The notes beneath the pieces are model-generated. The model searched no databases. It was given only the letters and a program-made list of their open reading frames with translations, and was not told where the DNA came from. Shown here piece by piece: positions 32,006-38,233 of a stretch of 64,000 nt of DNA. Location of the stretch: positions 242,499 to 306,498 of the forward strand of contig NZ_AMSI01000006.1 of assembly GCF_000300515.1 (NCBI RefSeq), written 5' to 3'. A program made the translations under genes and the position numbers. Within the stretch, counting starts at the first letter, position 1, and the number at the start of each line of letters is the position of its first letter. The DNA comes from Nitratireductor indicus C115 (GTDB lineage Bacteria > Pseudomonadota > Alphaproteobacteria > Rhizobiales > Rhizobiaceae).

Positions 32006-32905
32006 ATGGATACAAACCCTCGTCAGAACCGCTATCTCCTTGCCAATCGGATCATCGAACTGGCGCGCGCCTCGCGGTTCCAGGCAGATTATCATCTGCG
32101 CGAACAGCAACTGGCCGACACGCTTCAGGTCTCGCGCACACCGATCCGCGCAGCCTTGATGCTGCTCGAGGAACAAGGGGTCGTGGAAGCACGCAAGAAC
32201 AAGGGCTTCTTCATGAAGCTCGGCGCCGAGGAACTCGGCCGTGCGGAAGTGGAAATACCGACCTCACCGCAGCAGGACCTCTATGCGCGGATTGTCGAGG
32301 ATCGGCTGTCCAACCAGCTCGGCGAGACCATCGGACAAGCGGAAATCCTGCGCCGTTACGGCGTGGAGCGCAATGTACTGCAAAAAACCCTGTCGGCATT
32401 GACCGCAGACGGGCTGATCACGCGCGGCCCTGGCCGCAACTGGACCTTCCAGCCCACACTCGACAACAAATTCGCCCTCGACGCGAGCTATGCGTTTCGC
32501 GAAGTGATCGAGCCGGCCGGCATATTGATGGACAGCTTCCGCGCGCATCCTGCTGCCCTTGAGCATATTCGCCTCGAACATCTGAACCTTCTGGCCCGGC
32601 CCGACGTCAACAGCCTGCCGGGGCGACAGCTGTTCGAACTCGACGCCAGTTTTCACGAGACCATCGCGGAGTGTTCGGGCAACACCTTCCTGCTCCAGTC
32701 GATCCAGCAGCAGAACCGGCTGCGCCGTCTTCTGGAGTTTGCGAGCTACAACAATGGCCGCCGCGTACGCGAATGGTGCCAGGAACATCTGCGCATCATC
32801 ACCGCACTCGAGGAGGGAGACCGCAACCGCGCCGCCGACCTCATGCGGGGCCACCTCGACACCGCACGCGCCAGCTCCGAGCGCTCCAAGCGCAGCGGCG
32901 GCTGA
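32006..32905 (+). CDS. GntR-family regulator with two tandem winged-helix domains and FCD-like domain
   Basis: A 299-residue protein, longer than the usual 220-250. Residues about 10-70 are a GntR winged helix (LREQQLADTLQVSRTPIRAALMLLEEQGVVEARKN with FFM wing). Residues about 90-150 look like a second winged helix (DLYARIVEDRLSNQLG, ILRRYGVERNVLQKTLSALTADGLITR). The rest is an all-helical FCD-type ligand domain (FELDASFHETIAECSGNTF; EWCQEHLRIITALEEGD; LMRGHLDTA) with its metal-site His residues. It is divergent from the seven-gene amide/amino-acid operon and probably binds the TGTACAAT sites between them. The second DNA-binding domain could allow longer or bipartite operators. Confidence 0.88.
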   Translation: MDTNPRQNRYLLANRIIELARASRFQADYHLREQQLADTLQVSRTPIRAALMLLEEQGVVEARKNKGFFMKLGAEELGRAEVEIPTSPQQDLYARIVEDRLSNQLGETIGQAEILRRYGVERNVLQKTLSALTADGLITRGPGRNWTFQPTLDNKFALDASYAFREVIEPAGILMDSFRAHPAALEHIRLEHLNLLARPDVNSLPGRQLFELDASFHETIAECSGNTFLLQSIQQQNRLRRLLEFASYNNGRRVREWCQEHLRIITALEEGDRNRAADLMRGHLDTARASSERSKRSGG

Positions 32906-32947
32906 CACAAAGCGCAGGGAAGCGCACTTGGCATTTCCATCCAGGGC

Positions 32948-32975
32948 ATATATGAACCATATACGATTCATATAT
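32948..32975. promoter_or_regulatory. Perfect palindrome before the ParD-like gene
   Basis: ATATATGAA (32948-32956) and TTCATATAT (32967-32975) are exact inverted repeats separated by 10 bp, ending 10 bp before the ATG at 32986. Ribbon-helix-helix proteins bind such sites on their own promoters, so autoregulation by the ParD-like product is likely. Confidence 0.65.
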
Positions 32976-32985
32976 GGAGAACCCG

Positions 32986-33198
32986 ATGGGCATCGTGAAC
33001 ATCGACGACGAACTGCATGATCAGCTGCGCCGTGCAAGCAAGGTGTCGCTTCGCTCGATTAACGCGCAGGCCGCCTATTGGATCAAGATCGGCATGCTGT
33101 GCGAGACCAATCCCACGCTCAGCTTCGCGGAAATCATTGGGCGCGAGCTGGACGCGGCAGGCGTATCCGCCCAGTCGATGGCTGCGGCAGAAGCATGA
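32986..33198 (+). CDS. ParD-like ribbon-helix-helix protein
   Basis: A 70-residue protein: MGIVNIDDELHDQLRRASKV begins with a beta strand followed by helices, the pattern of the ParD-like antitoxin family. SLRSINAQAAYWIKIG is the second helix region. I chose ATG 32986 because GGAG (32976-32979) lies 6 nt upstream; ATG 32974 would add MENP and sit inside the palindrome. No ParE-like toxin follows. Instead the gene overlaps a methionine aminopeptidase by ATGA. The role is probably autoregulation of the pair; whether it binds or controls the aminopeptidase is unknown. Confidence 0.82.
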   Translation: MGIVNIDDELHDQLRRASKVSLRSINAQAAYWIKIGMLCETNPTLSFAEIIGRELDAAGVSAQSMAAAEA

Positions 33199-33968
33199 TC
33201 AAAAGCTCCGGTGAACTTGCTCTGATGGCCGAATCCGGCCGGCTTCTGGCGTCCGTATTCGAACTTCTGGACCGCACTCCCCTTGTCGGCAGATCGACGC
33301 TTGAGATCAACGATATGGTCGAGCGTTTCATAGTGCACGACCTTGGCGCGCGTCCGGCGAGCAAGGGACAGTATGGCTATGGTTTCGTGCTGAATGCCTC
33401 GGTCAACGACGTGGTCTGCCACGGCGTCCCCTCGCAGACATCGATCCTGAAGGACGGCGATATCGTCAATCTCGACATCACGCTCGAAAAGAACGGCTAT
33501 ATCGCTGATTCCAGCAAGACTTATCTGATCGGCAAGGTCAATCCGGCCGCCAGGCGCCTGGTGCAGACAGCCTATGACGCCATGTGGATGGGCATTCAGG
33601 CAGTTCGCCCCGGCGCACGCCTCGGAGACATCGGCTGGGCAATCGAACGTCACGCCAAACGCAATGGATATTCGGTTGTGAGGGAATTCTGCGGCCATGG
33701 CATCGGCAAGGAGATGCATGAGGAGCCCCAGATTCTGCACTTCGGAAAGCCGGGAACGGGTCCTATCCTTCGCAGGGGAATGGTCTTCACCATCGAGCCG
33801 ATGCTCAATCGCGGAAGGCGTAACGTCAAGACAGAGGCCGACGGGTGGACCGTTTCCACGAAAGACGGATCGCTTTCCGCGCAGTTCGAGCACACCGTGG
33901 CCGTTACGGATTCAGGCGTTTCGGTGCTCACATTGCGCCGGGACGAAACCGGCAGGCACGCCGCCTGA
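33195..33968 (+). CDS. map: Type I methionine aminopeptidase
   Basis: A 257-residue MetAP removing N-terminal Met from proteins. All five metal ligands are present: LDITLEKNGYIADSSKTY (two Asp), CGHGIGKEMHEEP (His), FTIEPM (Glu) and FEHTVAV (Glu), and the substrate His is in VVCHGVPS. So it should be active, unlike the M24 protein at 25806. The start ATG 33195 overlaps the ParD-like stop as ATGA, indicating translational coupling. It has no ribosomal or secY neighbours, as the housekeeping copy usually would, so it is probably a second, accessory MetAP. Confidence 0.92.
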   Translation: MIKSSGELALMAESGRLLASVFELLDRTPLVGRSTLEINDMVERFIVHDLGARPASKGQYGYGFVLNASVNDVVCHGVPSQTSILKDGDIVNLDITLEKNGYIADSSKTYLIGKVNPAARRLVQTAYDAMWMGIQAVRPGARLGDIGWAIERHAKRNGYSVVREFCGHGIGKEMHEEPQILHFGKPGTGPILRRGMVFTIEPMLNRGRRNVKTEADGWTVSTKDGSLSAQFEHTVAVTDSGVSVLTLRRDETGRHAA

Positions 33969-34092: not shown

Positions 34093-35169
34093 TCACTCCG
34101 GGTCCCTGCGCATGCCACTTGCCCTGTCGAAGACATGGATGCGGCGGCGCTCGATACCCGAGCGGAAGGTTTCGCCGACGGCCACCCGATGCTCCCCGTC
34201 GACGATGGCCGTCACGGTCTTGCCGCCATAGCTGAAATAGACAAGCGTCTGTGCGCCCATAGGCTCGATCATGATGACCTCGCCACACACGGCCTCTCCC
34301 GCATCGTTGTTTATCAGCTCCGGGCGCAACCCGATGATGATCTCCTGCCCGTCTGCAACACCAAGGGCCGGATCGAGCTCCAGCGCATTTCCGTCAGCCA
34401 GCTGCGCCCGCAGATGCCCGTCGCCGCGCGCCGCCCTCGCCTCCAGAAAGTTCATGGCCGGCGATCCTATGAAACCGGCAACAAACAGATTGGCCGGGCG
34501 GTTATAGAGATCGAGCGGGCTTCCCTGCTGCTCCACATGTCCCTTGTTGAGCACGACCAGGCGGTCGGCCAGCGTCATCGCCTCGATCTGATCGTGCGTC
34601 ACATAGACAGAGGTCGTTTTCACCTTCTGGTGCAACTGCTTGATTTCGGCACGCATGGCCACCCTCAGCTTCGCATCGAGGTTTGAAAGCGGCTCGTCGA
34701 ACAGAAACACCTTGGGACTGCGCACGATGGCCCGGCCCATGGCGACCCTCTGCCGCTGCCCGCCGGAGAGCTGCCCGGGCTTGCGGTCGAGAAGCGCTTC
34801 CAGATCGAGCATACGCGCAGCCTCCGCCACCCGCTCCCGGATCTCCGCCTTGGGCTTCTTGGCGAGCCTGAGATTGAAGGACATGTTTTCGGCAACGGTC
34901 ATCTGCGGATAGAGCGCATAGGACTGGAACACCATTGCGATATTGCGATCCTTGGGACTGACATCGTTGACCTTGCGCCCCTCGATCCAGACTTCACCGC
35001 CGCTGACCTCTTCAAGGCCGGCGATCATGCGCAGAAGCGTGGACTTTCCGCAGCCCGAAGGCCCCACCAAAGCCACGAACTCACCGGATTCGATTTCCAG
35101 ATCGATACCAGGGATGACATTGACCGCGCCGAAGGTTTTCCGCACGCCGTTCAGAATCACTGAAGCCAT
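34093..35169 (-). CDS. CUT1 sugar ABC transporter ATP-binding protein (UgpC/MalK type)
   Basis: A 358-residue ATPase: Walker A GPSGCGKSTLLRMIAG, Q-loop MVFQSYALYPQM, signature GQLSGGQRQRVAMGRAI, Walker B VFLFDEPLSNLD, H-loop VTHDQIEAM. A C-terminal TOBE/regulatory domain (GLRPELINN; MGAQTLVYFSY) is present as in MalK. It is the last transporter gene of a minus-strand operon (binding protein 37028, permeases 36044 and 35217, then this). The operon also carries kinase, aldolase, aldehyde dehydrogenase and enolase genes upstream. Confidence 0.95.
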   Translation of the reverse strand: MASVILNGVRKTFGAVNVIPGIDLEIESGEFVALVGPSGCGKSTLLRMIAGLEEVSGGEVWIEGRKVNDVSPKDRNIAMVFQSYALYPQMTVAENMSFNLRLAKKPKAEIRERVAEAARMLDLEALLDRKPGQLSGGQRQRVAMGRAIVRSPKVFLFDEPLSNLDAKLRVAMRAEIKQLHQKVKTTSVYVTHDQIEAMTLADRLVVLNKGHVEQQGSPLDLYNRPANLFVAGFIGSPAMNFLEARAARGDGHLRAQLADGNALELDPALGVADGQEIIIGLRPELINNDAGEAVCGEVIMIEPMGAQTLVYFSYGGKTVTAIVDGEHRVAVGETFRSGIERRRIHVFDRASGMRRDPE

Positions 35170-35216
35170 ATTCGTCTCTCAGCCGAAAACCGGCTCTTTC
35201 CTTTGTCGTTTCGCAT

Positions 35217-36047
35217 TCAGCCCTTCACGCTGCCGGCAGCCATGCCCGACACGATGAAGCGCTGCATCAGAAGGTAGAGGGCGACCGCGGGCAGTGTGTA
35301 GACCACGCCCACAGCCATCACCGACTGGATGGGCGTGGAAATCTCGCCGATGAAGCCCGCGAGCCCTACGGAGGCAGGCTTGAGCGTGTCGTTGGTGATG
35401 AAGGTCAGCGCAAAGACATACTCGTTCCAGCCATGGAAGAAGGCGATCACGGCCGAAGCGGCGACCGAGGGCATGATGACGGGAAGCACCACCCGCACCA
35501 GCGCATTGATCCCCGTGCACCCGTCCAGCACCGCCGCTTCCTCTATCTCCACCGGCACCGTGTCGAAGGCGTTCTTCAGGATCCAGGTGATAACCGGCAG
35601 CGTGAAAGCCGTGTTGGCAAGGATGAGGCCTGCGTAGGAATTCAAGAGCCCGAGCGGCGAGAAGATGGAGAAGAGCGGCACCACGAGAACTGCCTCCGGC
35701 AGCATCTGCGTCACCAGCAAGCCGATGCCCACCCCGGCCTTGCCCCAGAAGGGAAACCGGGCGAAGGCATAGCCGAGCGGGATTGCCAGCGCCAGCGTCA
35801 GCACGGTCGTTCCGGCGGCGATGATGAAACTGTTGGCAAGCCAGGTCTTAACCGCTCCCTCCTCGAATATCTGGGCGAAAATGCCCAGTTGCGAGAGGGA
35901 CGGCACGAGTTGCGGCGACGCGGCGAACATGTTCGCATCCGACGTCGTGGCGGTCACGAACATCCAGTAAAAGGGAAAGATCGCGAGCCCTGCCAGCACG
36001 AAGATAATGACCAACGCCGCATGGCTGATGAATTCGGAGCGGGTCAT
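35217..36047 (-). CDS. CUT1 sugar ABC transporter permease (MalG type)
   Basis: A 276-residue permease with six spans, beginning AALVIIFVLAGLAIFPFYWM. The EAA coupling loop is EIEEAAVLDGCTGINALVRV (the EAAxxDG form typical of sugar permeases) followed by VLPVIMPSVAASAVIAF. The end VSGMAAGSVKG is typical of MalG-type proteins. Its start overlaps the MalF-type stop by ATGA. It forms a heterodimeric channel with 36044-36967. Confidence 0.94.
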   Translation of the reverse strand: MTRSEFISHAALVIIFVLAGLAIFPFYWMFVTATTSDANMFAASPQLVPSLSQLGIFAQIFEEGAVKTWLANSFIIAAGTTVLTLALAIPLGYAFARFPFWGKAGVGIGLLVTQMLPEAVLVVPLFSIFSPLGLLNSYAGLILANTAFTLPVITWILKNAFDTVPVEIEEAAVLDGCTGINALVRVVLPVIMPSVAASAVIAFFHGWNEYVFALTFITNDTLKPASVGLAGFIGEISTPIQSVMAVGVVYTLPAVALYLLMQRFIVSGMAAGSVKG

Positions 36048-36967
36048 CGCATTTTCTCCGCACGGGTTGCACGGTTGGCGACCGCGAAATAGGCGATGGT
36101 CACGAGAACGGACACGGCCATGCCCACCATGCCGACGGCTGCCGCCTCGCCCAGCTTGTTGATGATGAAGCCGCGCCGATAAAGGTCAATCACCAGCGTA
36201 TTGGTAGACCCGACGGGACCGCCCTGCGTGAGCAGCCAGATGAGCTCGAAACGGCGGATCGACCAGATCGTCATCAAAAGCGCAAGCAAGGCCACCGTCG
36301 GCCGGATCACTGGCCAGGTCACGGCATGGAACTGTGCCCACAATCCGGCTCCGTCGATCTGGGCCGCCTCCTTGAGTTCCTTCGGAACGGACTGGAGCGA
36401 AGCCAGGATAACAACCGCGGTGAAGGGAAAAAGCTGCCAAATCGTAATGGCAAGCACCGTGATGAGCGCAAGGCTTGGATTGTCCAGCCAGAGCCCTTCG
36501 GCAGGCATCAGGCCAAGCGGCTCCAGCCCGCGATTGACGATGCCGTACTGGCCGTTGAGCATCCAGCGGAACACCAGCGCAATCGCCACCGGCGGTGCAG
36601 CCCAGGGAATGATGATCAACGAGCGCACGAAGGAACGTCCGGTAAACTCCCGGTCCATCAAAAGCGCGGCGAAAAGGCCAAGACCGATGGTGCCGATGAC
36701 GCAGCCGGCCACGTAGATCGCAGTGACCTGAATGGAGTTGAAGAAATTCGGATCGCGCAGCAGGCGCGAGAAATTGGCGACACCGATGAAATTGAAACGG
36801 CTCGGATTGAGCAGCGACGTGTTGGAAACCGAAAGCCGCATCTCCTGCAGCAACGGTATCCCCTGGAAGACCAGAAGATAGACCACACCCGGCAGGACCA
36901 GCATATAAGGCAGCCATCGGCTGCCATGAATCCTGGCAAGCTGCGTTCCGTGACTATGTGAACTCAT
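36044..36967 (-). CDS. CUT1 sugar ABC transporter permease (MalF type)
   Basis: A 307-residue permease with six spans (LPYMLVLPGVVYLLVFQGIP first). The coupling loop is ELKEAAQIDGAGLWAQFHAV followed by TWPVIRPTVALLALLM. I chose ATG 36967 (MSSHSHGTQ) with AGGTGA upstream; the frame to 37015 runs through a hairpin and is unlikely to be translated. It is separated from the binding-protein gene by that hairpin and coupled to the MalG-type gene by an ATGA overlap. Confidence 0.93.
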   Translation of the reverse strand: MSSHSHGTQLARIHGSRWLPYMLVLPGVVYLLVFQGIPLLQEMRLSVSNTSLLNPSRFNFIGVANFSRLLRDPNFFNSIQVTAIYVAGCVIGTIGLGLFAALLMDREFTGRSFVRSLIIIPWAAPPVAIALVFRWMLNGQYGIVNRGLEPLGLMPAEGLWLDNPSLALITVLAITIWQLFPFTAVVILASLQSVPKELKEAAQIDGAGLWAQFHAVTWPVIRPTVALLALLMTIWSIRRFELIWLLTQGGPVGSTNTLVIDLYRRGFIINKLGEAAAVGMVGMAVSVLVTIAYFAVANRATRAEKMR

Positions 36968-36986
36968 GGCGTCTTTCACCTGCAAA

Positions 36987-37013
36987 GCTCCCGCGCTGCA
37001 AAAGCGCGGGAGC
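36987..37013 (-). other. Intercistronic hairpin after the sugar-binding-protein gene
   Basis: GCTCCCGCGCT (36987-36997) pairs perfectly over 11 bp with AGCGCGGGAGC (37003-37013), loop GCAAA. No T-run follows toward the permease. It is probably a 3' stabiliser or attenuator that raises binding-protein expression. Confidence 0.7.
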
Positions 37014-37027
37014 ATTCCGAAGGTTAT

Positions 37028-38233
37028 TTAGCGCAGGGCTTCTACCTGCGACTGGGCTTCGTTCATCGCCGCAGCGACATCCGTCTGACCGGCCAGAACA
37101 CGCATCACCGCCTCGACGACGATATTGCGCACCTGCGGGGTTTCGGCCTCCAGCCCTTGTGGCATGAAGGGAAGCGCCACATCGCCCAGACTGTCGAACA
37201 CTTCGATATAGGGCGCCTTCTCCAATTCCTCCTTGGTGCGCGCAATCGGCGTTGCCGCCGTCGAGCCACCGAGGAAGCCTTGCACCTTCGCCTGCGTCTC
37301 TGGCGTAAGGAACCATTTCATGAATGCCTTGGCCGCATCCGGGCTCTTGGAATTGCCGTTGATGGCGAGTGCAGCCATCACCTGGCCGATTGCCTTGGTG
37401 GGAAGCGGCGCCGGCGCCGCGGCAATGGCCGCATCCGGATTGGTGCCCTTCAACACGGTCGGAATGCCGCCATTGTCGATCATCATGGCGATCTTGCCTT
37501 CCGCGAACATGCGGCGATAAGTGGCCGCATCCGCACCCTTGGGAATGACATTGGCGTCATAGAGCGTCTTGTAGGCGGTCACGCCGGCAATCGTTTCGGC
37601 ACTGTTGATGGTCGGGTTTCCATCGACGGCCCAATGGCCTCCATTACCATAGACATAGTTCGACAAATCATACCAGACACCGGCTTCTTCAGCCTGCGTG
37701 TGCCGGAATGCAAACCCGTAGACACCGTCCTTGGTCTGCGCCTTGGCCTCCGCCACCAGTTCATCGAACGTGGTCGGCACTTTCGTGACAAGCGTCGGAT
37801 TATAAATGAGGGCATAGTTCGAGATGTCGAGCGCCACGCCATATTGCACGCCATCGACGATCAGCGAGTTGTTGCCGGGAAGCAGCGTCACACCATCCAC
37901 GACTTCGTCCAGCGACACGAGCAGCCCCGCCTCTGCGGCGGCATAGATGTTCGGCTGATCGAAGGCAATGACGTCTGGACCGCCACCGCCGCCCATCTGT
38001 GTGAACATGGTGGTGCCGAAGGACGAGAAAGGCGTCGTGACAGGTGTCACATGAACAGCGTCCTGGCTCTGATTGAACTCCTCCACGAGCGCAGTGAGCA
38101 ACGGACCGCGCAGCGGCTCGCCGAGCATGGACGCGGCAAAGCTGATTTCTGCGGGCTCTGCCGCTGCCGCGGCCACCGAACCCAGAAGCGCCAGGGCAGC
38201 CACCCCGGCCATGAGATTACGTCTATCGATCAT
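37028..38233 (-). CDS. CUT1 sugar ABC transporter substrate-binding protein
   Basis: A 401-residue family 1 extracellular binding protein. The signal peptide (MIDRRNLMAGVAALALLGSV, cleavage near AAA-EP) is followed by EFNQSQDAVHV, GGGGGPDVIAFDQPNIY, FRRMFAEGKIAMMIDNGG-type ligand segments (here YRRMFAEGKIAMMIDN) and KAFMKWFLTPETQAK near the end. GGAGACCAGG precedes the ATG. A twin Arg is present at RR near the N-terminus, but the context is more like Sec. It delivers a sugar or sugar acid to the permease pair at 35217-36967. Confidence 0.93.
   Translation of the reverse strand: MIDRRNLMAGVAALALLGSVAAAAAEPAEISFAASMLGEPLRGPLLTALVEEFNQSQDAVHVTPVTTPFSSFGTTMFTQMGGGGGPDVIAFDQPNIYAAAEAGLLVSLDEVVDGVTLLPGNNSLIVDGVQYGVALDISNYALIYNPTLVTKVPTTFDELVAEAKAQTKDGVYGFAFRHTQAEEAGVWYDLSNYVYGNGGHWAVDGNPTINSAETIAGVTAYKTLYDANVIPKGADAATYRRMFAEGKIAMMIDNGGIPTVLKGTNPDAAIAAAPAPLPTKAIGQVMAALAINGNSKSPDAAKAFMKWFLTPETQAKVQGFLGGSTAATPIARTKEELEKAPYIEVFDSLGDVALPFMPQGLEAETPQVRNIVVEAVMRVLAGQTDVAAAMNEAQSQVEALR

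Follow-up and report, generated by a model that had tools for sequence, protein, structure and literature searches.

A probable autorepressed second methionine aminopeptidase paired with a ParD-like repressor in a horizontally moving two-gene cassette

Introduction

Predicted ribbon-helix-helix (RHH) proteins of the ParD-like family (PF11903) are known from operons with a ParE-like toxin (PF15781), in which the RHH gene comes first and its partner overlaps it or lies adjacent to it. The locus described here shares the RHH family and this arrangement but differs from these operons in that the partner is a methionine aminopeptidase (MetAP), the RHH protein has a fixed Met-Gly start, and the operator is built of CRTATAYG repeats spaced by 11 bp. 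A partner other than ParE is also found in the pair Rv0366c/Rv0367c, which is listed in TASmania as a zeta toxin with a ParD_like antitoxin (PMC6504116); this indicates that the ParD_like family exchanges partners, although the partner in the Rv pair is of the zeta type and not a MetAP, and the term “aminopeptidase” is absent from the main text of that source. The second component resembles the housekeeping Map (TIGR00500), with which it shares the catalytic and metal-binding residues and the P1' pocket, but it is a second copy that forms a distinct clade (support 100/100), lies under an RHH-type operator and has replacements at the P1 residues 59, 62, 70 and 177.

N-terminal methionine excision is essential in bacteria; it is near-universal and usually regarded as constitutive. 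The existence of a mobile spare MetAP under its own control would mean that this excision is regulated in bacteria and that the enzyme performing it can be swapped, and it would be a case of a toxin-antitoxin chassis put to use with a housekeeping enzyme. In the open-licence literature, no paper was found that links ParD-like proteins with methionine aminopeptidase or aminopeptidase, none with the term DUF3423, which we take to be the old name of the ParD-like family, and none on a “second methionine aminopeptidase”. The existing annotation labels the two genes separately, as a ParD-like family protein and map. As judged from the sequences, the locus is an antitoxin-type operon with a second, partly remodelled MetAP in the toxin slot.

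The gene pair in Nitratireductor indicus

The window, that is, the whole stretch of 64,000 nucleotides that was analysed, comes from the nearly complete 5.0 Mb genome of N. indicus C115. On its plus strand, a predicted RHH repressor of 70 aa (32986..33198; MGIVNIDDELHDQ..., with the Met-Gly start MGIVNI...) is followed by a MetAP of 257 aa (33195..33968), and the stop codon of the former and the start codon of the latter share the ATGA at 33195-33198. An earlier sequence-only reading had described this pair as a ParD-like gene overlapping a complete MetAP gene with all metal ligands intact, possibly a second MetAP of the organism, and each of these points was borne out. The 11-bp tandem operator, the remodelled methionine pocket, the invariant Met-Gly start and the divergent MetAP lineage described below go beyond that reading. 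The RHH protein matches the PF11903 ParD_like profile with 73 bits (cut-off 23), and the MetAP matches TIGR00500, type I methionyl aminopeptidase, with 292.7 bits (cut-off 171.35); H79, D97, D108, H171, H178, E204 and E235 (E. coli numbering) are all present; and another MetAP, 48% identical to that of the cassette and with an ordinary P1 pocket (TYYCFW), is encoded elsewhere in the genome (G000:C13:49289-49924). The PF11903 match is the only one in the genome.

The RHH protein most likely starts at the ATG at 32986, behind a Shine-Dalgarno-like GGAG (32976..32979, plus strand) that shares the last base of the operator, and not at the ATG at 32974. The latter also opens the RHH reading frame, but it falls within the third operator repeat, and among 144 related loci there are 77 in which the RHH protein can begin only at Met-Gly (including L091, whose upstream region is cut off by a contig end). 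The neighbouring genes (32006-32905 and 34093-38233), identified by eye as encoding a GntR-type regulator and a sugar ABC transporter, have no evident link with the cassette. Among the matches listed, the closest named relatives of the pair come from Mesorhizobium, Aminobacter and Phyllobacterium.

Distribution and mobility

A survey of 398 evenly drawn Pseudomonadota genomes, in which a PF11903 match within 500 bp of a MetAP was counted as linked, shows the adjacency of ParD-like and map genes, for which the earlier reading had proposed such a survey, to be widespread and not rare: PF11903 has 117 matches in 109 genomes, and 48 of these matches are linked. The linked genomes (n=48) encode two MetAPs in 47 cases and three in one, a count that takes in G604:C135:129562-130314; at E 1e-20, the genomes with unlinked PF11903 only have one MetAP in 52 cases, two in 2 and none in 7. 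Close homologues of the cassette MetAP, counted as type A at E 1e-85 or better, occur in 35 of the 398 genomes, all but one of them (34/35) within the linked set. In the family to which N. indicus belongs, PF11903 was found in 42 of 247 genomes, and a MetAP lies downstream in 27 of the 30 loci read. Among named genomes, a MetAP stands beside the RHH gene in 80/80 loci, these being the best 80 of 591 matches, picked by similarity to an alignment with seven of eight members linked to a MetAP. The gap between the two genes is -4 in 91 of 141 linked loci, and the cassette operator precedes most of the MetAP-linked relatives read, which come from alpha-, beta- and gammaproteobacteria. The MetAP matches of two loci, L082 (residues 113-252) and L094 (residues 2-103), are partial and possibly represent broken or frameshifted copies; the residue counts given below cover the 141 linked MetAPs less these two.

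The distribution of the cassette is patchy. The RHH protein matches 162 plasmid records, and a MetAP adjoins it in the few that were read. The RHH protein and its upstream region are identical in a Klebsiella plasmid, Burkholderia cenocepacia and Halotalea (L035, L108, L109), and the upstream regions are likewise identical in Solimonas, Cupriavidus and Extensimonas (L079, L084, L104), with one residue of the RHH protein different in L104. Identical or nearly identical sequences in such distant hosts suggest recent transfer. A search of 50,697 phage records for a phage origin gave no match; the RHH gene is present on three viral contigs, each with a MetAP nearby, which may be proviruses with host DNA. 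A search at megablast sensitivity found the Klebsiella-type pair in no E. coli. When three genomes of the same genus were compared with the locus (40 candidates scored in each), only ABC-ATPase regions and weak matches in the MetAP region aligned.

No recurrent neighbour was found in the 80 named loci, where any cluster of open reading frames of at least 90 aa, those overlapping the pair aside, is present in at most five; the unit therefore appears to consist of the two genes and the operator. In one Pantoea plasmid, msrA lies directly downstream of the pair. An Acinetobacter seifertii plasmid (L037) carries the pair between ISAba825 transposase and recombinase genes, about 1.6 kb from an OXA-58 gene. 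A contig titled Bacillus subtilis SK7B5 (L089) carries a pair very similar to those of Stenotrophomonas (L090, L111) and probably belongs to a contaminated assembly.

Operator and promoter

Upstream of the RHH gene, three CRTATAYG repeats with a period of 11 bp (32947-32954, 32958-32965 and 32969-32976) match the consensus at 24/24 positions, a score reached by 0/5000 sequences obtained by dinucleotide shuffling of the upstream 80 bp. The sequence-only reading had placed a perfect 9+9 bp palindrome over the promoter. The inverted repeat is exact (ATATATGAA at 32948-32956 and TTCATATAT at 32967-32975), but the tandem array of three CRTATAYG units describes the site better, the appearance of an inverted repeat being due to the fact that every unit is palindromic or nearly so.

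The array is conserved. Among 138 distinct 80-bp upstream regions, which comprise those of MetAP-linked loci and of three Met-Gly RHH genes without a MetAP, a score of 19/24 or more at period 11 is reached by 125, compared with 0.07% of dinucleotide shuffles, and at other periods (8-10 and 12-15) by only 0 to 9 of the 138; loci with MetAPs of type B score 17-21 of 24. No such operator was found upstream of 38 PF11903 genes located away from a MetAP (one of them with a short upstream region), where the maximum is 16/24. The promoter-covering repeat of the earlier reading thus seems to be a conserved operator particular to the MetAP-linked branch. In the whole N. indicus genome, the 28-base operator pattern with zero mismatches occurs only at the cassette, where both strands of the one site match. 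A search of this genome for a wider RHH regulon with up to three mismatches returned the cassette site (both strands and a match shifted by 11 bp) and a single further match, with three mismatches; the reversed-pattern control gave one match. RHH proteins bind short repeats on one face of the helix, and the 11-bp spacing fits this mode of binding. An operator that travels with the MetAP-linked branch and apparently has one target in N. indicus fits autoregulation.

The promoter itself would lie beneath the operator. A putative -35 element, TTGGCA (32928..32933, plus strand), is followed after a 15 bp spacer by a putative -10 element, TATATG (32949..32954, plus strand), within the first repeat; the alternative -10 element TATGAA (32951-32956) would give a spacer of 17 bp. 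Across 125 upstream regions of relatives, TTG[ACG][ACG] is in excess at two distances from the operator window, 19-21 bp upstream with 48 counts and 10 bp upstream with 22 counts, the former distance being equivalent to a spacer of 15-17 bp to a TATAYG unit that serves as the -10 element.

The ParD-like protein

All 135 distinct MetAP-linked RHH proteins read begin with Met-Gly-[IVL]-[VI]-[NKS]-[IL], encoded from an ATG, GTG or TTG start codon. The 38 unlinked PF11903 proteins read mostly begin with MS, MP, MA or MT, with one Met-Leu and one Met-Glu; one of them has a possible Met-Gly start (L152, MGMPVR), and none has the start MG[IVL][VI].

The AlphaFold2 model of the RHH monomer, of modest confidence (pLDDT 71.5), contains three helices (H8-17, H25-41 and H47-57) and no strand. 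A Foldseek search with this model returned nothing significant, and a profile search of the PDB with the RHH protein gave no match. Contact between the RHH protein and the MetAP is possible, given that E54, A58 and G59 are invariant in 25 linked RHH proteins and that conservation of the tail following the core is at much the same level as in ParE-linked RHH proteins. In a comparison of 53 linked type A with 24 unlinked sequences, most but not all of which have a ParE-like open reading frame, the mean conservation of the tail is 0.47 in both groups, that of the core is 0.79 (linked type A) versus 0.64 (unlinked), and the tail/core ratio is 0.60 versus 0.72. These values are weak evidence on whether the pair acts as a toxin and its antitoxin, a reading considered below.

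The methionine pocket and the MetAP lineages

In E. coli MetAP, the P1 subsite is formed by C59, Y62, Y65, C70, F177 and W221, and P1' by C78, Y168, E204, M206 and Q233 (PMC10724148, Table 2). At the P1 positions the N. indicus cassette MetAP has S, Q, Y, N, M and W, compared with the canonical C/P/T59, Y62, Y/F65, C70, F177 and W221, while its P1' pocket (C78, Y/F168, E204, M206, Q233) is unaltered. By alignment to E. coli MetAP, the four replaced residues are S56 (codon 33360-33362, for C59), Q59 (33369-33371, for Y62), N67 (33393-33395, for C70) and M174 (33714..33716, for F177), all on the plus strand. On this sequence comparison, the cassette enzyme is a divergent rather than a typical type I MetAP, with a P1 pocket that departs from the canonical one. 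The same replacements characterize type A, the main MetAP clade of the cassettes, with S at 59 in 123/124 sequences, Q62, N70 and M177 in 124/124 each, and P1' unchanged. The 15 type B sequences all retain Y62 and carry N59 and Y177, and the 22 other MetAPs aligned have P, T or C at 59, Y62 in 21/22, and C70 and F177 in 22/22 each. No catalytic or metal residue varies among the aligned MetAPs, whether of type A (124), of type B (15) or of neither (22).

In the PDB, the cassette MetAP is best matched, at about 250-264 bits, by what are presumably the enzymes of Pseudomonas aeruginosa and E. coli; full-length type A members score more than 300, so that type A does not seem to be represented among the structures. 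The altered methionine pocket is of relevance to MetAP as a drug target. The lysines that we take to be those of the ribosome loop (K211, K218, K224 and K226) were considered as a mark of spare MetAPs and rejected, since other MetAPs vary there as well.

Two readings take the pocket itself as the key. According to one, the cassette confers resistance by target replacement: a spare MetAP with an altered P1 site would survive a natural MetAP inhibitor to which the main enzyme succumbs, with the RHH protein switching it on. The replacement of four of six P1 residues in 123-124/124 type A enzymes and of positions 59 and 177 in 15/15 type B enzymes speaks for such a role, as do the patchy distribution, the carriage on plasmids and the presence of the same or almost the same cassette in hosts that are only distantly related; nevertheless, no biosynthesis or export gene recurs in the neighbourhood of the 80 named loci, and no inhibitor turned up in this analysis. 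The other reading is that of a substrate-shifted aminopeptidase, whose more polar P1 site takes a modified first residue, for example N-terminal methionine sulfoxide. It would account for the exchange of Cys, Tyr, Cys and Phe for Ser, Gln, Asn and Met at P1 while C78, E204, M206 and Q233 of P1' remain unaltered, and it agrees with the msrA gene of the Pantoea plasmid, but no msr or oxidative-stress family is found in the neighbour clusters of the 80 named loci. Resistance is an unlikely function of the cassette, and a shift in substrate is not a probable one either: the pocket of a further lineage, type C, is ordinary, which counts against both.

Types A, B and C each form one clade (support 100/100, 100/98 and 100/99, respectively). 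A common origin is possible for types A and B (support 86/74), and type C sits in the tree among alphaproteobacterial housekeeping-type MetAPs; A+C or B+C as one clade was rejected (p-AU 0.00034 and 0.00014). The MetAP gene lies downstream of the RHH gene in types A and B and is divergent from it in 7/7 type C loci. The named carriers of type B are Pantoea, Erwinia and a Comamonadaceae plasmid. Type C stands beside the RHH gene of a Sulfitobacter plasmid and also occurs in one viral contig and in five of 248 genomes of one family, which were searched with the Sulfitobacter RHH protein; a sixth match (L237) is not of the Met-Gly type. In the seven type C loci (L228, L226 and L232-L236) the RHH protein starts with Met-Gly (7/7), the upstream region is operator-like (18-21/24) and the MetAP pocket is of the ordinary TYYCFW composition; the five genomes of the 248-genome family have two MetAPs each. 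At least two MetAP lineages thus appear to have been joined independently to the same type of repressor, and what they have in common would be MetAP activity rather than an altered pocket. Of the hints at a functional link between the repressor and methionine excision, this shared activity is the strongest.

The repeated recruitment also bears on a further account, an ordinary duplicated MetAP under simple autoregulation that responds to no special signal, with Gly2 and the pocket changes incidental. Such an origin agrees with the match of the enzyme to the ordinary MetAP model. The pocket changes, for their part, are invariant throughout type A, MetAPs of more than one lineage have been joined to one type of repressor, and the operator is conserved; these points indicate a maintained function and make the account a rather improbable one.

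Proposed function

The cassette probably provides a spare MetAP, autorepressed and contained in a self-sufficient, horizontally moving unit of two genes. The RHH protein, a member of an antitoxin family, would act as the dedicated autorepressor by binding the three 11-bp-spaced repeats, which extend over the -10 region as far as the Shine-Dalgarno sequence. The MetAP would fill the slot held by a ParE-like toxin in other operons of the family and would be used as an enzyme, the operon being induced when methionine removal becomes limiting.

The trigger might be the N-terminus of the repressor itself. Met-Gly is a preferred MetAP substrate. By analogy with other RHH proteins, residues 2-6 would form the DNA-contacting strand, which would place Met1 at the DNA surface; with Met1 retained or modified, the repressor would hold the operator less tightly, and the spare MetAP would be made until processing is restored. 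Failure of excision owing to an inhibitor, metal limitation or a modified methionine would release the repressor in the same way. That the state of Met1 switches the operator, and the RHH protein is in this sense a sensor of N-terminal methionine excision, is put forward tentatively, as a possibility that we hold to be less probable than its converse. Small second residues are common, most unlinked relatives have a cleavable S, P, A or T in this position, and Gly2 may be structural. Should the N-terminus of the repressor prove to be the trigger, the protein would represent a direct sensor of methionine excision.

Relatives outside the pairing

There are 69 unlinked PF11903 matches in the survey, and of the 40 loci read 38 gave an RHH protein by profile (L184 and L185 gave none). 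By eye, the downstream open reading frame is ParE-like in 29/38, P-loop (zeta-like) in 5/38 and neither in 4/38. Three partner pieces were compared with Pfam: the two ParE-like ones matched PF15781, and the P-loop one gave only AAA-type matches below the cut-off and no match to a zeta family.

This company, together with the antitoxin family of the RHH protein, the antitoxin-first order, the 4-bp overlap, the putative operator and the carriage on plasmids, is what a type II toxin-antitoxin system would have, with the MetAP as a toxin that over-trims N-termini and the ParD-like protein neutralising it. An altered P1 pocket could mean off-target trimming, and the tail of linked RHH proteins is in absolute terms no less conserved than the ParE-linked tail. 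Relative to the core, the tail is somewhat less conserved, which is a weak point against the toxin role, as the ordinary pocket of type C is a further one. Two type A MetAPs, moreover, stand without an RHH gene, one in a single genome of the 35 with type A (L213, G517) and one on a Legionella adelaidensis plasmid (L229). Both have intact catalytic residues and a pocket altered as in type A; no RHH gene was found in the 3.0 kb (L213) and 6.8 kb (L229) read around them (best E 0.4), and no clear operator remnant precedes them, the scores of 16/24 (L213) and 13/24 (L229) being at or little above background. These solo enzymes suggest that the MetAP does not need the RHH protein as an antidote, and they make a toxin role unlikely. 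A PADLOC search gave no match for either protein; with the partner in no known toxin family and two intact solo MetAPs, the toxin-antitoxin-like module contemplated in the earlier reading was not supported as a toxin-antitoxin pair in the narrow sense.

The repressor, for its part, can apparently serve other genes, since three of the 30 loci read in the N. indicus family (L011, L023 and L025) encode a Met-Gly RHH protein behind an operator-like upstream region (18-19/24) and no MetAP. Two of them (L011 and L025, both 19/24) have similar SnoaL/NTF2-like open reading frames downstream, that of L011 matching below Pfam cut-offs, and the third (L023) has no clear partner. In another genome, with one MetAP, a PF11903 match (G238:C45:3779-3955) is interrupted by an in-frame TAG and is possibly part of a decaying cassette.
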